A stretch of DNA of 64,000 nt from Verrucomicrobiales bacterium. Lineage in GTDB: Bacteria > Verrucomicrobiota > Verrucomicrobiia > Verrucomicrobiales > DEV007. The notes beneath the pieces are model-generated. The model was not told where the DNA came from. It saw only the letters and a list, made by a program, of their open reading frames with translations, and did not search any database. Position numbers and translations under genes: made by a program. Positions 29,668 through 36,842 of the stretch are shown here, in pieces. Every line of letters begins with the position of its first letter. Position 1 is the first letter of the stretch. The stretch covers positions 1 through 64,000 of the forward strand of contig JAHEJT010000008.1 in assembly GCA_024638765.1 (NCBI GenBank), given 5' to 3'.

Positions 29668-31077
29668 CTACTCGCGGTCTCTCAGGAAAGTCGGCACATC
29701 GAGATCCTCGCCATCGATAATGGTGGGTTCGCTTTTCTCAAAGCGCCCGCGCGCCCCGGGATTGAGCTTGAGCTCCTGCTGAGAAGCCTTCCGCTTGGCA
29801 GCTGCGGCCACCGCGACGGCTTCTTCTTCCGTTGGCTCCACGTCCACGACAACTTCCTCACTCGGCGAATCAGCCGCTTCCTTCAAAACCGGAAGCGACA
29901 CCGGCTCCTGCGCTTGCTCGGCGTCTTCGACCGTGACCGGTGCTTCGACTTCAATCTGTTCTTCCGGCGGCGGCGCGGCGACACGGGCGGGAGCCACTTC
30001 CTCCTCCTGCGCATCGGCGGCCGGCACGGATGCAGACGCGGCGGCTGCAGTCGGCTCCGCGTCGGATTCTTCGGCCTCCTCTTCCTCCAGCCGTCTCATC
30101 GCCATGCGCGGCAGCGAAGTAATCAGCGTGATGCCGATGTCATCGCCCATGGTGGTATCCGTGGAAGTGCCGAAGAAAATCTGGGCGTCGTCACGCAGCG
30201 TTTTTCCGAGCTCTTTCATGAGCAGCTCCACTTCGAAAAGAGTGAGCGTTTCTCCGCCGCAAATATGAACCAGGACGTTGGATGCCTGGGCAAGTTGCCC
30301 GCGATCGAGGAGCGGGCTCTTGAGAGCGTCCCGGATGGCGGCCTGGGCGCGGTTATCACCCTTGGCGCGGCCGTATCCGAAGAGGCAGCGTGAATCGGTG
30401 TTGCGCAGGGCGCTGATCAAGTCATCGAGGCCGATGTGGATCAATCCCGTCTTGGTCACCAGTTGGGTCACCGCGCGCACGCTCTGGCTGATAATTTTGT
30501 CCGCGGCAGCAAATGCTTTCTGAATGCCCTCCTTCGCGAGGATAAGTTCACCCATACGGTCATTTTCAAAGATAATCGTCGCGTTGGCGGAGGTGCCCAG
30601 TTGCTCCAGCGCGGTTTGCGCCTGCTCGAGCCTGCGCCGCCCCTCGAAGGAAAACGGAAAGGTCGCAAAGACAACCACGAAAGCGCCTTCCTGCTCGGCG
30701 ATGCGCGCCACCACCGGAGCGGCGCCGCTGCCGGTCCCACCGCCCAAACCCACGCAAATAAATATCATCGACTGCCCTTTGACAGCCTCCCGGATCTCGT
30801 CGGCAGCTTCCATGGCCGCTTCTCGTCCCAGTTCCGGATCGCCCCCGGCGCCCAGACCTTTGGTTAACTCTCTGCCCAGCTGAACCTTCTTACTGGAGAC
30901 CGAAGTGGAGAGAGCCCGGACATCCGTGTTCATGGAAAGGAGATCCGCTTCTTCCATGCCTTCCAGGGCGATGCGGTCCAGCGAATTGGCGCCGGCCCCT
31001 CCGATTCCAAAAACACGCACGGAAAATTCACTTCCGTTCGCCAGATCTTTCTGCGTTGAGGTCTTGTATTCAATCAT
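29668..31077 (-). CDS. ftsZ: Cell division protein FtsZ
   Basis: A 469-residue tubulin-like GTPase forming the division ring. The GTP-binding signature GGGTGSG is at 112-118, and the SMNTDVRAL and PFSFEG segments are conserved. The T7 catalytic loop that should read N-x-D-x-x-D is H214-I-G216-L-D-D219 (HIGLDD), confirmed in the DNA at 30421-30450: the Asn and the first Asp are lost, the second Asp is kept. A long acidic Ala/Val/Glu-rich linker (about 335-445) ends in the C-terminal peptide DLDVPTFLRDRE, which should bind FtsA. It is the last dcw gene, with 158 bp between ftsA and ftsZ that may hold a promoter. Confidence 0.97.
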   Translation of the reverse strand: MIEYKTSTQKDLANGSEFSVRVFGIGGAGANSLDRIALEGMEEADLLSMNTDVRALSTSVSSKKVQLGRELTKGLGAGGDPELGREAAMEAADEIREAVKGQSMIFICVGLGGGTGSGAAPVVARIAEQEGAFVVVFATFPFSFEGRRRLEQAQTALEQLGTSANATIIFENDRMGELILAKEGIQKAFAAADKIISQSVRAVTQLVTKTGLIHIGLDDLISALRNTDSRCLFGYGRAKGDNRAQAAIRDALKSPLLDRGQLAQASNVLVHICGGETLTLFEVELLMKELGKTLRDDAQIFFGTSTDTTMGDDIGITLITSLPRMAMRRLEEEEAEESDAEPTAAAASASVPAADAQEEEVAPARVAAPPPEEQIEVEAPVTVEDAEQAQEPVSLPVLKEAADSPSEEVVVDVEPTEEEAVAVAAAAKRKASQQELKLNPGARGRFEKSEPTIIDGEDLDVPTFLRDRE

Positions 31078-31235: not shown

Positions 31236-32465
31236 TCAGAAGATTGCGCGGGATACACCAAAAAACTCCGTGAATTTTCGGCCAATTCGCCCGAGCACCG
31301 GGCCGGAAGGACGCTCGGTTTCGAGAACTTGCGCATACCGGATCAATCCGATGGGAGTGGCATACTGAGGGTTCTCGAAGGTCGCAGTCAGCCCGCTGAT
31401 GGGGGTGGAATTGGCTCGGTGGACAGGCATCCCGTAAACCTCTTCCGCCAGCCGGTCGAATCCATTGAGCAAGCTGCAGCCACCGGTCAGAAAGATACCG
31501 GCTCCGACCTGATCCAGGTTCCCCGCATCGTCCAATTTATTCTTCACCAACTCCAGGATCTCCCGCGCACGCACGTTGATGATTTCATTGAGCAGGGCCC
31601 GCTCGATGGGCTTCCCGACAAATCGGGTATCGTCAGAGAGATCAATGGTCTCGCCGGGCTCCGCTTCCCCGATCATGGCGTTACCCTCTTCAATTTTCAG
31701 CTTCTCCGCTTTAGCCAGGGGAATCTTGAGCACGATGGAAAGATCATTGGTGATGTGATCGCCACCGACTCCGATACAACCTGAGGCGGTCACGGCCCCG
31801 TCATTGTAAAGCACGTAATCCGCTGTGCCTCCGCCGACGTCGATAACTACGGCGCCGCGTTTCTTGGCTTCCTGGTTGAGCACGACCTGGGCCGACGCTA
31901 TCGCGCTGACGACGACATCCTCCACCTCCAGCGGAATCTCGCGAACACACCGGATCGTATTCTGAATCCGTGTCCGGATCCCGTGGATGATATGATAGTC
32001 CGCTTCAAGTTTTCGTCCGAGCATGCCCACGGGATCGAGCACCTTTTCCTGGCCGTCGACGTAATAATGCTGAATGATGCTGTGAAGAAACGCGTTCTGT
32101 TGAGGAATGGAGACATCCCGCGCGATTTCTTTTACCTCCTCCAGATCCTCTTCCGTGATCTCATTCTGGTCGTCTGGAATCCGGATACACCCGCGGTTAT
32201 TCACGCTCTCGATATGCGCTCCGGTGATGCTCAGGAAAACATTGCGCACCATGACGTCGCTGCGATCCTCCGCCCGCACCAGCGCATCGTGCAAACAAGT
32301 TTGTGCCGTCCCGAAGTCGACAATCTCCCCCTTGCGCACGCCCCGCGACGGCGCCTGACCCACACCCAGGATTTTAATGGCGCCGTCGCCTTTGACCTCC
32401 CCCACGACGACGCAGATTTTCGAAGTTCCTATTTCCAGGCCAACGTAAATATTCGATCGTGACAT
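31236..32465 (-). CDS. ftsA: Cell division protein FtsA
   Basis: A 409-residue actin-fold protein tethering FtsZ to the membrane. The phosphate 1 motif GLEIGTSKI, the phosphate 2 motif VIDVGGGTADY and the adenosine motif FLTGGCSLLNG are present. The 1C domain (about 85-165) characteristic of FtsA is inserted after the first motif. A C-terminal amphipathic helix (VLGRIGRKFTEFFGV) provides membrane binding. The TATA-box-like order ftsQ-ftsA-ftsZ is the standard dcw arrangement. The gap to ftsQ is 47 bp. Confidence 0.97.
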   Translation of the reverse strand: MSRSNIYVGLEIGTSKICVVVGEVKGDGAIKILGVGQAPSRGVRKGEIVDFGTAQTCLHDALVRAEDRSDVMVRNVFLSITGAHIESVNNRGCIRIPDDQNEITEEDLEEVKEIARDVSIPQQNAFLHSIIQHYYVDGQEKVLDPVGMLGRKLEADYHIIHGIRTRIQNTIRCVREIPLEVEDVVVSAIASAQVVLNQEAKKRGAVVIDVGGGTADYVLYNDGAVTASGCIGVGGDHITNDLSIVLKIPLAKAEKLKIEEGNAMIGEAEPGETIDLSDDTRFVGKPIERALLNEIINVRAREILELVKNKLDDAGNLDQVGAGIFLTGGCSLLNGFDRLAEEVYGMPVHRANSTPISGLTATFENPQYATPIGLIRYAQVLETERPSGPVLGRIGRKFTEFFGVSRAIF

Positions 32466-32512: not shown

Positions 32513-33550
32513 TCATCCTCGACTCAAAATACTTCGAATAGCATCAAGGTGTCGCTCCGCCTCGCCGCTTCCAGGGTCGGTCGAAGCAGGCTGCCGGTAC
32601 ACCGGCTGGGCCTCCTGGCGCAGAGATTCTACGCCATCAGCCGGAAAATTGAAATACGTAATCGGGATATTCTTGCGCGCCATCAGGTTGAGAGTCGCCA
32701 TCTGGCGATTCTGGGCAAGGGTGTGGGCCATGATCAACTTCAAATCCTGGAGCTGCGCCCCGATATCCTGCATCCCGAAGGTCACCTCCGCGTCGCTGTT
32801 GTAAGTCGCTTTCATGGAATACTCATTGCGCAATTCCACCTCCACGATCTCCAATTGCTCCTCAAAGAAGATCTCGTTGCTCCGCCCAATCAGGTCCAGC
32901 GCGCGAATCACCTGCTCTGACTCAATGCGCGCGCCGGGCTTGACACGCGCCAGGCTGCGCACCCGGACCACCGGCAGCGCGAGGTATCGGCGCAGCAGCG
33001 CCTCGCAAGGCAACACCGCTCCATCGATATCCAGAAGAAATCCCCGATGCGATGTCTGTGAGCGAATCCCCAGCGCCGGACATTCGAGCCATGCCATCGG
33101 GAACCGCTCGAAGATCCGGATCTTGAGCTGGTTCGGCAACTGTCTCGTGACTTCCACCGACTCCACCTGCGCCAGGTTCCCAAGACGCGCCCGGACATCC
33201 TCGATATCAATGCTCAGCAGGTTCATGCCTTCCGTGATACCCGCTTCCCCCACGATGCGCTGGTAATCCAGTCCCCCGTTGCTCTCGACCTGGAGATCAG
33301 TTAAGGAGAACTCGACGTTTTCGTAAAATGTCTTTTCATAAATCCATCGCGCGCAAATCCCCAACGCGATCACTGATGCCGCCACCAGCACGGACTTGAA
33401 CACCCAGCGTACCACCGCCACCCGCCGCAACCTGGTCTCGGCCTTCGAACGCATCCTCACGTCCAACTGTTGAAGCTTCTTGTTGCGGGCAGGCTGATGC
33501 TGGACGCGGTGATTCGGGTTCCGCCGTTTCGTATTCGAGCTGTTTTTCAT
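32513..33550 (-). CDS. ftsQ: Cell division protein FtsQ/DivIB
   Basis: A 345-residue bitopic divisome protein. A very basic cytosolic leader (1-47) precedes one membrane segment (about 48-66, WVFKSVLVAASVIALGIC) and a POTRA domain (about 82-150; EGMNLLSIDI and VTRQLPNQLKIRIFERFPMAWL). The beta domain follows and ends with a low-complexity tail. FtsQ links the FtsL/B module to FtsK and the rest of the divisome. The leader is longer than in E. coli. It lies 18 bp after ddl. Confidence 0.92.
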   Translation of the reverse strand: MKNSSNTKRRNPNHRVQHQPARNKKLQQLDVRMRSKAETRLRRVAVVRWVFKSVLVAASVIALGICARWIYEKTFYENVEFSLTDLQVESNGGLDYQRIVGEAGITEGMNLLSIDIEDVRARLGNLAQVESVEVTRQLPNQLKIRIFERFPMAWLECPALGIRSQTSHRGFLLDIDGAVLPCEALLRRYLALPVVRVRSLARVKPGARIESEQVIRALDLIGRSNEIFFEEQLEIVEVELRNEYSMKATYNSDAEVTFGMQDIGAQLQDLKLIMAHTLAQNRQMATLNLMARKNIPITYFNFPADGVESLRQEAQPVYRQPASTDPGSGEAERHLDAIRSILSRG

Positions 33551-33568: not shown

Positions 33569-34495
33569 TTAAGCGCGCGCCGGAGCGCGCAACGCAAACG
33601 AAAGCTCCGCAATCCGCAGGCAGAGCGCTGCAAAATCAATCCCGGCCTCTTTGGCCGCCTTCGGCAGAAGACTGCTCTCCGTCATACCCGGGATCGTGTT
33701 CACTTCCAGGACCCACGGCTCGCCCTCCCCATCGAGGAGAAGATCCACCCGGGAATAAATCTCCACTCCCAGCGCCCGATGCGCCGCAAGCGCTGCCCCT
33801 TGAACCTTTTCCGTCCTCCCCTCCCCTAGCTGCGCCGGACAAAAGTAATCCGTCCCGCCCTCTTCCAGGAGCCAGGGATACTTGTTCTTCATGTCATAAA
33901 ATCCCGAGCGCGGCTGGATATGCACCACCGGCAGGGTTTCCCCGTCCAGGATCCCCACCGTCAACTCCTTGCCGTCAATCAACTTTTCAATTAACAGGCG
34001 CTTTCCGAACCGGGAGGCGTCTTCCAGAGCCGCCGCCCACCCGGATTCCTCCCGCACGAGGTGCACCCCGACACTCGATCCTTCGCAAGCCGGCTTCACC
34101 ACGAGGGGAAATTCCATCTCCGGCCGATCCCGCTCGTCCAAATCCAAAACTTCGTGTGCCGGCGTCGGCACCCCGTGACTGCTAAACCGCTCTTTACTCA
34201 AGAATTTGTCGAACGCCAGACGACTGCTCTCCACCCCCGCCCCGGTGTACGCAATCCCTCTCTTTTCAAGAAGCTCCTGGAAATCACCGTCCTCCCCGAA
34301 GGTCCCGTGAATCAGGTTGTATACCAGGTCCACACCTTCCGGCACCTCAAAGTCCGGTCCCCGCACATCCATCTGCACCAAGTCGAGCCCGCAGGATTCC
34401 AGCGCGCCCCGCACCGCCTCCGCCGAAGCCAGAGAGATTTCTCTCTCCGAACCCGGGCCGCCGCCGGCTATCGCAATTCTCTTATTTTCCAGCAT
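33569..34495 (-). CDS. ddl: D-alanine--D-alanine ligase
   Basis: A 308-residue ATP-grasp enzyme making D-Ala-D-Ala for the peptidoglycan stem. GGPGSEREISLASA opens the protein, followed by YNLIHGTFGEDG, PLVVKPACEGSSVGV and the metal site EVNTIPGMTESSLLPK. The ATG at 34493-34495 is preferred because GAGGAG lies just upstream at better spacing than for the adjacent ATG at 34496-34498; upstream in-frame codons overlap murC/B and look like noise. It is separate from the MurC/MurB fusion, unlike chlamydial MurC-Ddl. The gap to the fusion stop is 22 bp. Confidence 0.95.
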   Translation of the reverse strand: MLENKRIAIAGGGPGSEREISLASAEAVRGALESCGLDLVQMDVRGPDFEVPEGVDLVYNLIHGTFGEDGDFQELLEKRGIAYTGAGVESSRLAFDKFLSKERFSSHGVPTPAHEVLDLDERDRPEMEFPLVVKPACEGSSVGVHLVREESGWAAALEDASRFGKRLLIEKLIDGKELTVGILDGETLPVVHIQPRSGFYDMKNKYPWLLEEGGTDYFCPAQLGEGRTEKVQGAALAAHRALGVEIYSRVDLLLDGEGEPWVLEVNTIPGMTESSLLPKAAKEAGIDFAALCLRIAELSFALRAPARA

Positions 34496-34517
34496 CATCT
34501 CCTCGAAAATCTCCGCT

Positions 34518-36842
34518 CTATGTGTACTTGCCCGAGGTAAATAAGTCTTCTTCCCCGAGAATCTGCACTTCCGTCTCCAGTTCGATATTCCGTTCCTCTC
34601 GCGCCGCCGACTTGATCTGATCGATAATCGATAAGACCTCTGCCGCCGAGGCCTCTCCCTCATTGACGATAAAATTGCCGTGCACCTCCGAAACCCGCGC
34701 CGCACCCACCCGCAAATCTTTCAATCCCAACTCTTCCACCAACCGGCCGGCGGGACATTCTTCGGGATTCTTGAATATACAGCCCGCGCTGGCGGCCACC
34801 GGCTGCGAGTCGCGCCGCTTGCGCATGGACTCTTCCATACGCGCGTCGATCTGCGCCGCTTCCGTGGGCCGGCCCCGGAACACCGCCGAAACCGCGTAGT
34901 TATCCCGCAGCTCGGGAACATTCCGGTAATAACTTACAATTTCATCGGCCGATTTCTCCTCCAGACTCCCTCCACCATCAAGATAGCGGACGCTGACGAC
35001 CTGATCGAAAGTGGCGCTCCCCATAGCGCCCGCATTCATGCGCAGTCCGCCGCCCACGTTCCCCGGGATTCCCTCCATCCACTCGAATCCTCCCAGGCCT
35101 GCGTTTTTCGCGGCGGCGGCCACCTGCTTGAAGCGCGCGCCCACTCCGGCCACGATGCAATCCCCCTCCACCCGCACCTCGGAGAATTCCCCCTTGGAAG
35201 GATGCGCAACCACCCCGGCGATGCCCCCGTCCCGCACCAGCAGGTTCGAGCCGCGGCCGATAACCCTCAGGGGAATACTTCGCTCCCGGCAGAAGCGCAC
35301 CAGCCGCGCAAAGCCCTCCACGCTGCGGGTCTCCACCCAGAATTGCGCGGGCCCGCCAACCCGCAAGGTCGTGTGGCGGCTCATCGGCTCGTAAAGCCTG
35401 AACACGGCTTCTTCCTCCTGCACGCATTCCCGCATTGCATCCAGCACCGCCATGTCTGCTGCAATCCGCGTGGCTGCTTCGTGCACGTTACCGGCCCCGA
35501 GACTGAGAAAGAAATCGCCTTCCCTCAAATAATTACCGACCCGAAGATGGGCGCGATCGAGCTCGGGAGTATAAAATGCCTCCACCCCCCGGCCCTGCTT
35601 CAGGATCTCGTCGACGACGGTCTGTCCGCTGATCCCGGGAATCGGCGGTTCGCTGGCCGGATAAACGTCCGTCACAAAGACGGCGTCCACCCCCTCGAAA
35701 GCGCTCCCGAACTCCGCGGCCAGCGATCGCGTGCGCGTGTAACGATGGGGCTGGAATAAACACACCAGCCTCTTCGCCTGCAAGGTGCGCGCCGTGGCAA
35801 GCGTAACCGCAATCTCTGTAGGATGATGCCCATAATCATCCACGATCGAAATTGTTCCAGTCTTGTATTTCCATTCGAACCGTCGCCGGGCCCCGCGAAA
35901 TGTCCCCAATGCTTTTGTGATGGCCTCGAATTCCACGCCCAGCTCGGACGCCAGCGCGATCACACTTAAAGAATTCAGCACGTTGTGTCGCCCCGGTATC
36001 CCCAAGGTCGCTTCGCCGAGACTCGCGCCCCCGCGACAGACCTCGAATACCATGCTCTCCCCCTGCTCCTGCACGGCGCGGGCCGAGTAATCCAGGCCCC
36101 TCTCCCAACCGTATGAAATCGATGCTTGCCGCTCCGCGGCCAGCGAAACGGCCCCGCCGTCTTCGGCGCAGTAAATAATCTTTCCCGATGTCTGATCGAG
36201 AAATTGCGCAAACACCTTCCGGATCGCGGCGACGTCCTCGTAAAAATCGAGATGTTCCGCCTCGACATTGAGCAATATCGCGTGCTCGGGATGAAAGAGC
36301 ACCAGTGTCCCGTCGCTTTCATCGCCTTCCGCGACCATGTAATCCCCAGCCTTCTCCCAGTGCGCGTTGGTTCCCAATACCGGGATCTCCGCGCCCACGT
36401 AATGCGAACACCTGACCCCCGCCTGCCGAAGCACGTGCGCCGCCATCGCGGAGGTGGTCGTCTTCCCGTGAGTCCCCGCAACCAGAATTCCCCGCTTCCC
36501 TTCCATGATCGCGGCCAGGGCTTCCGCCCGGCGCACCAGTGTAATCCCAAGTTTCATGGCCGTGTCGAAGGCGACGTTGCCTTTCTTTACCGCCGAAGAA
36601 TAAATCACCAACTCGGCGTCCTCGACTGCTTCCGCGGTGTGAGGACAGGAAAAATCGAGCCCCACGCGCTGCAACCGTTCCGTCTCCACGGTGGTCACCT
36701 TGTCGGAACCGCTGACCCGGTGCCCAAGCCCGAGCAACAGCGACGCCAGGCCGCTCATGCCCGAACCGGCCACACCGATGAGGTGGATCCTCATCGGGCG
36801 TCTCTGCCCTTGATGCAGGGCCTGGGTCCATGATTTTTTCAT
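34518..36842 (-). CDS. murC/murB: MurC-MurB fusion: UDP-MurNAc-L-alanine ligase and UDP-GlcNAc-enolpyruvate reductase
   Basis: A 774-residue two-domain enzyme. Residues about 17-465 are MurC: IHLIGVAGSGMSGLA, the ATP loop GTHGKTTTSAMA and the DDYGHHPTEI metal motif. Residues about 480-774 are a short type II MurB with the FAD motifs IGRGSNLLV and EGIPGNVGGGLRMNAG. MurB's proton donor Ser is Cys here (ASAGCIFKNP), a change known in some type II enzymes. The start ATG overlaps the murG stop as ATGA. The fusion couples the UDP-MurNAc-forming reduction to the first peptide-adding step. No separate murB is in the cluster. Confidence 0.95.
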   Translation of the reverse strand: MKKSWTQALHQGQRRPMRIHLIGVAGSGMSGLASLLLGLGHRVSGSDKVTTVETERLQRVGLDFSCPHTAEAVEDAELVIYSSAVKKGNVAFDTAMKLGITLVRRAEALAAIMEGKRGILVAGTHGKTTTSAMAAHVLRQAGVRCSHYVGAEIPVLGTNAHWEKAGDYMVAEGDESDGTLVLFHPEHAILLNVEAEHLDFYEDVAAIRKVFAQFLDQTSGKIIYCAEDGGAVSLAAERQASISYGWERGLDYSARAVQEQGESMVFEVCRGGASLGEATLGIPGRHNVLNSLSVIALASELGVEFEAITKALGTFRGARRRFEWKYKTGTISIVDDYGHHPTEIAVTLATARTLQAKRLVCLFQPHRYTRTRSLAAEFGSAFEGVDAVFVTDVYPASEPPIPGISGQTVVDEILKQGRGVEAFYTPELDRAHLRVGNYLREGDFFLSLGAGNVHEAATRIAADMAVLDAMRECVQEEEAVFRLYEPMSRHTTLRVGGPAQFWVETRSVEGFARLVRFCRERSIPLRVIGRGSNLLVRDGGIAGVVAHPSKGEFSEVRVEGDCIVAGVGARFKQVAAAAKNAGLGGFEWMEGIPGNVGGGLRMNAGAMGSATFDQVVSVRYLDGGGSLEEKSADEIVSYYRNVPELRDNYAVSAVFRGRPTEAAQIDARMEESMRKRRDSQPVAASAGCIFKNPEECPAGRLVEELGLKDLRVGAARVSEVHGNFIVNEGEASAAEVLSIIDQIKSAAREERNIELETEVQILGEEDLFTSGKYT

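Follow-up and report, generated by a model that had tools for sequence, protein, structure and literature searches.

The window, the whole stretch of 64,000 nucleotides of Verrucomicrobiales DNA analysed here, carries an ftsZ gene in which the T7 loop has kept only one of its two catalytic aspartates. The question raised by this locus is whether the product is a decaying FtsZ or a functioning division protein with an altered catalytic site. The identity of the 469-aa product was examined at the level of domains, fold and context. It scored 136.8 bits with PF00091 (cut-off 33) and 77 bits with PF12327 (cut-off 27), above both domain thresholds for FtsZ. Under the TIGR00065 ftsZ equivalog model it reached 293.8 bits (E 2e-87), 1.4 bits below the naming threshold of 295.2, and E. 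coli FtsZ reached 471.7 bits. The GTP-binding signatures GGGTGSG (residues 112-118) and PFSFEG (residues 141-146) are both intact in the translation, as the preliminary description had stated for the nucleotide-binding face. A core model of residues 1-330 (8 sequences) had a pLDDT of 82.5, about 60 around the T7 loop, and a pTM of 0.82; its best match, B. subtilis FtsZ chain 2rhl_A, gave Z 44.1 and rmsd 1.8 over 305 aligned residues, which identifies the FtsZ fold. The full-length model (7 sequences, mean pLDDT 53) was poor and was not used.

A murC-murB fusion, ddl, ftsQ and ftsA stand upstream of the gene, in the order expected for a dcw cluster (Table 1). No other PF00091 match was found in the genome of origin, a draft of 309 contigs that is 93% complete. 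The C-terminal peptide DLDVPTFLR is, by its resemblance to E. coli LDIPAFLR, a putative FtsA/membrane-recruitment tail. A peptide like it was found, with one search pattern, in 44 of the 53 clade ORFs whose stop lies inside the locus, and five of the nine misses were off by a single letter. By orthology, fold and context the protein is FtsZ. The linker between the core and the C-terminal peptide (window 29668-30110) is highly variable, and clade ORFs with the end peptide measure from about 420 to more than 900 aa between stops. The joining of MurC and MurB in one ORF has also been reported for Verrucomicrobium spinosum. An Rfam scan of the 64-kb window gave no match.

Table 1. Features of the ftsZ locus in window coordinates. 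Clade A is the clade holding the window FtsZ (46 rows after thinning); position numbers in clade rows are those of E. coli FtsZ.
Feature	Coordinates	Strand	Basis and remarks
ftsZ, 469 aa	29668..31077	minus	ORF list; GTPase domain, FtsZ_C domain, linker, C-terminal FtsA-binding-like peptide
C-terminal conserved peptide DLDVPTFLR	29680..29706	minus	Second BLAST segment against E. coli FtsZ
T7 loop H214-I215-G216-L217-D218-D219 (canonical N-x-D-x-x-D)	30421..30438	minus	Translation, alignments, clade conservation
T6 loop E171-N172-D173 (canonical PND), new acid at 164	30559..30567	minus	E/D in 46/46 clade A rows; P in 14/18 controls
T5 loop PFSFEG and R149 (E. coli R142, arginine-finger-like)	30631..30657	minus	Alignment; R142 in 46/46 clade A rows
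T4 tubulin signature GGGTGSG, intact	30724..30744	minus	Translation; G105, G106 and G107 in 46/46, T108 and G109 in 43/46 clade A rows
T3 loop GAGGDP (E. coli and S. aureus: GAGANP)	30835..30852	minus	D at the N73 position in 44/46 clade A rows and 4/18 controls
R54, loop T2/helix H2, at the E. coli Q47 (K+ lock) position	30916..30918	minus	Alignment; R in 37/46 clade A rows
ftsA	31236..32465	minus	PF14450 and PF02491; 32% identical to E. coli FtsA over 382 columns
ftsQ	32513..33550	minus	PF08478 POTRA_1
ddl	33569..34705	minus	PF07478, PF01820; listed start maybe too far upstream
murC-murB fusion, 809 aa	34518..36947	minus	Mur ligase and MurB_C/FAD domains in one ORF

The T7 loop had been read earlier as part of TGLIHIGLDD at 30421-30450, with N207 replaced by H214, D209 replaced by G216 and D212 kept as D219. 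The decapeptide was recovered as residues 210-219 of the ORF, and the three assignments were borne out by alignments with S. aureus and E. coli FtsZ. In a phmmer search against solved structures (best E 5.7e-67), HIGLDD fell on NLDFAD of S. aureus FtsZ without a gap, and E. coli NVDFAD stood opposite it as well. A length difference of one residue falls after the loop and is common to relatives with a plain NLDFA loop, so the alignment register is safe. An additional acid, D218, occupies the position of E. coli A211. The changes extend outside the loop to the K+ site (N207 and Q47), where H214 and R54 stand, and P164 has become Glu (E171). With a T7 loop that retains D212 only and with the K+ site residues replaced, the protein is, as judged from its sequence, not of the canonical NxDxxD GTPase type.

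The same loop was read in the relatives. Of 57 relatives searched, 53 matched, and 54 FtsZ rows of the order including the window (30 loci and 24 regions) were obtained. At position 209, 53 of them held Gly and one Glu, so that Asp was absent throughout; position 212 was D in 43, E in eight, Q in two and A in one. The change is therefore clade-wide, which disposes of the lone sequencing outlier that the preliminary description had named as a way to be wrong. Within clade A, D209 was likewise absent (0/46; G in 43), D212 was kept in 38 rows with E in five, and position 211 was D in 39, seven rows being without it and three of these rows holding Ala; in the controls outside the phylum, D at 211 was found in 0/18. 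N207 remained in two rows only and gave way to R (25), K (5), Q (5) or H (4), that is, to one of these four in 39/46, and Q47, mostly exchanged for R, was kept in six. The acid at 164 was E in 29 rows and D in 17. Besides R142, G71 was retained in 46/46 and D45 in 45/46. The G209/D211/D212 pattern is shared by the clade; the exact string HIGLDD is local only, the clade A loop being R/K/Q/H-I/L-G-M/L-D-D/E. Tests for paired changes on the tree (209 with 212, 207, 47, 164, 211 and others) ran short of the informative pairs needed to reveal co-evolution, with median p from 0.5 to 1 among the lines listed.

The last Thr of GGGTGTG is Ser in nearly all rows of two clades, giving a tubulin-like GGGTGSG; T110 was kept in 0/46 rows of clade A and 1/20 of clade O (described below), versus Thr in 18/18 controls. 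Three rows, L046 and L049 from one genome and L047 from another with the same genus code, read RVGLDQ or RLELAQ, with KVGKQA in the second copy of one genome, and have Ala for G109 of GGGTG. They are possibly, on these residues, non-hydrolysing FtsZ inside the window's own family. Two genomes of the window's order with apparent bacterial tubulins (G041 and G045) have KLGLDD in their FtsZ (L038, L042), and we infer that their family is that of Prosthecobacter and Verrucomicrobium; L061, on a contig labelled Prosthecobacter debontii, reads ALGLDD. In L048 (genome G002) ftsZ runs across two reading frames, a likely assembly frameshift.

PF00091 was present in 191 of the 194 genomes of the phylum. 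The phylum sample consisted of 30 automatic loci (one being the window) and 60 regions, one to five per family, taken from the better-scoring matches listed; families with only weak, unlisted matches were left out, so the sample leans to conserved sequences. From 152 hits, removal of the fragments L048_0 and L063_1 and of the window duplicate L002_10 left 149 rows, which were thinned at 88% identity to 118. L064 and L065, which gave no FtsZ row, are taken to be bacterial tubulins. L097 and L098 are FtsZ-like genes from a single family with a very long branch; two alignments place their loop differently, so that its alignment is not firm. As controls, 18 FtsZ were used: those of E. coli and S. 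aureus and 16, some probably extra copies, from plasmid-collection records of Pseudomonadota, Bacillota, Actinomycetota, Bacteroidota and haloarchaea (chosen from 117 and 116 records listed or counted). D209 and D212 were present in all 18 and N207 in 17. A scan of viral contigs with E. coli FtsZ as query returned nothing.

Both aspartates were present in 17 of the 118 phylum rows, D212 only in 48, D209 only in 39 and neither in 14; the table looks like mutual exclusion of losses, but two clades dominate it, and no exclusion is claimed. Nine rows kept N, D and D, and seven carried an acid at neither position. All six interface residues (D45, Q47, R142, N207, D209 and D212) occurred together in 4/118, with a mean of 3.39 kept versus 5.5 in the controls, and any row with both aspartates was found in 13 of the 44 families tallied (a tally that leaves aside f1 and f3-f6). 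In the careful tree (101 rows, T7 loop columns removed, long branches left out), support was 100/98 for clade A and 100/99 for clade O, a group of 20 rows from the same class in which D209 was kept in 20/20, N207 in 17/20 and D212 in 0/20 (T 12, A 5, S 2, G 1). The fewest changes were 9 at position 209 and 13 at position 212, and 11 and 16 in the quick tree of 120 rows; since the controls all have D, these are mostly losses. Rows without D212 that keep NxD and carry Thr, Ala, Ser or Gly at 212 are L066-L073, L075, L076, L078-L080, L082-L087, L093-L096, L102 and L103, and the same replacement recurs in other families (L081, L110, L111).

The loss is uneven. Of the 30 positions that never vary in the controls, D209 (56/118) and D212 (65/118) belong to the eight least kept in the phylum, and G314, T110, A243, G221, N43 and P74 fell too, whereas G105, G107, P134 and D45 are kept in 97-100% of rows. 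Because the invariants are so unevenly kept, the erosion is not a general collapse. Identity to E. coli FtsZ is 32% for the window FtsZ and 51.6% for the S. aureus core. Faster evolution of ftsZ, not of ftsA, was stated for M. infernorum in the portion consulted of its genome paper, with data not shown (PMC2474590). In 113 pairs at 80-99.5% identity, 86 of them with unsaturated dS, the median dN/dS was 0.099 and the maximum 0.35. This low median of 0.10, together with the kept fold, gene context and FtsA-binding tail, therefore indicates that the gene is not decaying. To call the loop degenerate was misleading, for G209, D211, D212, the acid at 164 and R142 show strong conservation under purifying selection, which fits a rewired loop rather than a decayed one. 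The altered catalytic interface of this FtsZ is real, ancient and found across the clade, within phylum-wide variation at these residues.

What the changed residues do in other species can be taken from work on S. aureus FtsZ, where numbers are one higher than in E. coli. In the parts of Ruiz 2022 on which we draw (PMC8936486), D210 swings to position the catalytic water, whose environment is formed by D213 and G72, R143 acts like an arginine finger, and N208 and Q48 (E. coli 207 and 47) hold K+. There, Na+ in place of K+ cost 10-fold in GTPase and Q48A about 6-fold, and D210N and D213N abolished assembly. Coordination of the ion by N207 is also described in a partly consulted study of KpFtsZ (PMC10333351). 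In the canonical interface the T7 loop of the upper subunit supplies N207 for K+ (with Q47 of the lower subunit), D209 for positioning the water and D212 for the water's environment, with a water link from D212 to R142. The losses of clade A are exactly the swinging Asp and both K+ ligands, the ligands being replaced mostly by basic residues; the residues of the water's environment and R143 stay. Because the losses are limited in this way, we hypothesize a K+-independent, probably slower site. A built-in positive charge (R/K/H/Q at 207, R at 47) might replace the K+ ion, and D212 might handle the water, helped in most members by D211. GTP binding and polymerisation are predicted to persist, and hydrolysis to be slower and to need K+ less. 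The slow turnover suggested in the preliminary description is plausible.

The preferred reading, which we hold with about as much belief as doubt, is that the window encodes a genuine, functioning division FtsZ whose GTP-hydrolysis interface may have been rewired and not broken, with a probably slower, K+-independent site. Some points speak against it. No single replacement is universal (7/46 without D211, 6/46 keeping Q47, two keeping N207); the equivalent single mutants of other species fail to assemble or to hydrolyse; and the score is 1.4 bits short of the NCBI FtsZ cut-off. More tentatively, the whole phylum may have departed from the mechanism of K+ plus swinging Asp, clades A and O being complementary half-sites that both drive division, with neither aspartate indispensable.

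An attenuated or nearly dead GTPase would bind GTP and assemble filaments that scaffold the divisome, with very slow hydrolysis. Division would then depend on the scaffold and on wall synthesis at the septum instead of on fast treadmilling, and either aspartate would be dispensable since hydrolysis matters less; such a state could be a prelude to what happened in Planctomycetes and Chlamydiae, which have lost FtsZ altogether. In keeping with this, separate lineages lost separate residues (at least 9 changes at 209 and at least 13 at 212 on the careful tree), up to the rows with neither D (14/118) or no acid at either place (7/118), and clade O (D209 20/20, D212 0/20) lacks the aspartate that most of clade A keeps. 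Moreover, the slow hydrolyser FtsZ(D212A) is reported to make rings, and E. coli over-expressing D212A and FtsA to complete extra septa, in the consulted part of PMC4383033; low activity would therefore not forbid division. The strong purifying selection and the fixed set of replacements, however, fit a maintained new arrangement better than neglect, and ring condensation in B. subtilis is described as requiring treadmilling (PMC8079713, seen in part), so that on balance we consider attenuation rather unlikely. A simple swap, with D218 doing the work of D209 in a reaction that is canonical in other respects and of normal speed, is favoured by D at 211 in 39/46 rows of clade A versus 0/18 controls, and the suggestion made earlier that D218 is an alternative catalyst holds as a possibility for those rows; as a universal answer it fails, since Ala stands at 211 in three rows, two of which have G209 and D212. 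Position 211 lies two residues past 209, and helix H8 starts at residue 217 in the core model with D218 and D219 in its first turn (a low-confidence region), so the side chain should point elsewhere. The swap also leaves the loss of both K+ ligands unexplained, and we regard it as improbable.

A second FtsZ or tubulin could co-polymerise and supply the hydrolysis, like alpha- and beta-tubulin. Some genomes of the phylum do have a second PF00091 match, and G041 and G045, of the same order, have three and five, which are taken to include bacterial tubulins. However, the window's own genome has one match, all listed genomes of two families (f2 18/18, f9 18/18) have one each, and the only close relative with two FtsZ rows (L046, L049) lacks both aspartates in both, which makes a partner very improbable. 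Sequencing error, pseudogene or misalignment was rejected as of negligible probability, given the 0/54 order rows with D209, the gap-free alignment, the long intact ORF and the low dN/dS; only the draft state of the genome (309 contigs) speaks for it.

The GTPase activity and the treadmilling of FtsZ are regarded as central to division in bacteria, and Ruiz 2022, in the text consulted, describes the six interface residues that it tested as conserved across species (PMC8936486). In V. spinosum, tied to the clade A FtsZ by taxonomy, ftsZ is reported to be essential and division to be by binary fission (PMC12283558, seen in part). With most sampled FtsZ of the phylum lacking at least one catalytic aspartate, the gene under strong selection and essential in one studied member, the phylum amounts to a natural experiment on the need for hydrolysis. 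The gene has clearly been maintained as a functional one, which leaves two options: a rebuilt chemistry, or division on slow filaments in this clade. The phylum also provides an intermediate, open to experiment, on the unsolved question of how Planctomycetes and Chlamydiae lost FtsZ, and calls for caution with FtsZ-directed drugs and annotation cut-offs. Our literature search found no description of an altered T7 loop in Verrucomicrobiota, an earlier mention in Pilhofer 2007/2008 being possible; the consulted part of the M. infernorum genome paper prints a reviewer's remark on a non-functional ftsZ homologue in Lentisphaera (PMC2474590).

Canonical FtsZ of E. coli, S. aureus and B. subtilis (NxDxxD) shares with the window FtsZ the fold, the GTP-binding loops, R142, D45, D212, FtsZ_C, the C-terminal peptide and the ftsQ-ftsA-ftsZ order; the window FtsZ differs in having Gly for D209, His for N207, Arg for Q47, Glu for P164 and Asp for A211. 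The T7 loop of beta-tubulin is a natural loop of the tubulin family without the second acid, comparable to the D212-less clade O; tubulin works as a heterodimer, whereas here there is one FtsZ. The laboratory mutants SaFtsZ D210N and D213N and EcFtsZ D212A also lack one of the two catalytic aspartates. They fail to assemble or hydrolyse slowly, whereas the absence in clade A is natural, ancient and accompanied by further changes. The FtsZ of V. spinosum, from the same phylum, is likewise a divergent FtsZ in a dcw cluster with the Ser of GGGTGSG (Yee 2007, PMC1845146); in the consulted part of that paper, eight positions are unlike all other phyla, no T7 residue is named, and the protein is titled 'canonical'. 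The FtsZ-like protein of Nitrosopumilus maritimus is another natural homologue without NxDxxD. According to the part of its description consulted, the GTP-binding motif is missing from it as well and it failed to polymerise (PMC3684127), whereas in the window FtsZ this motif is intact.
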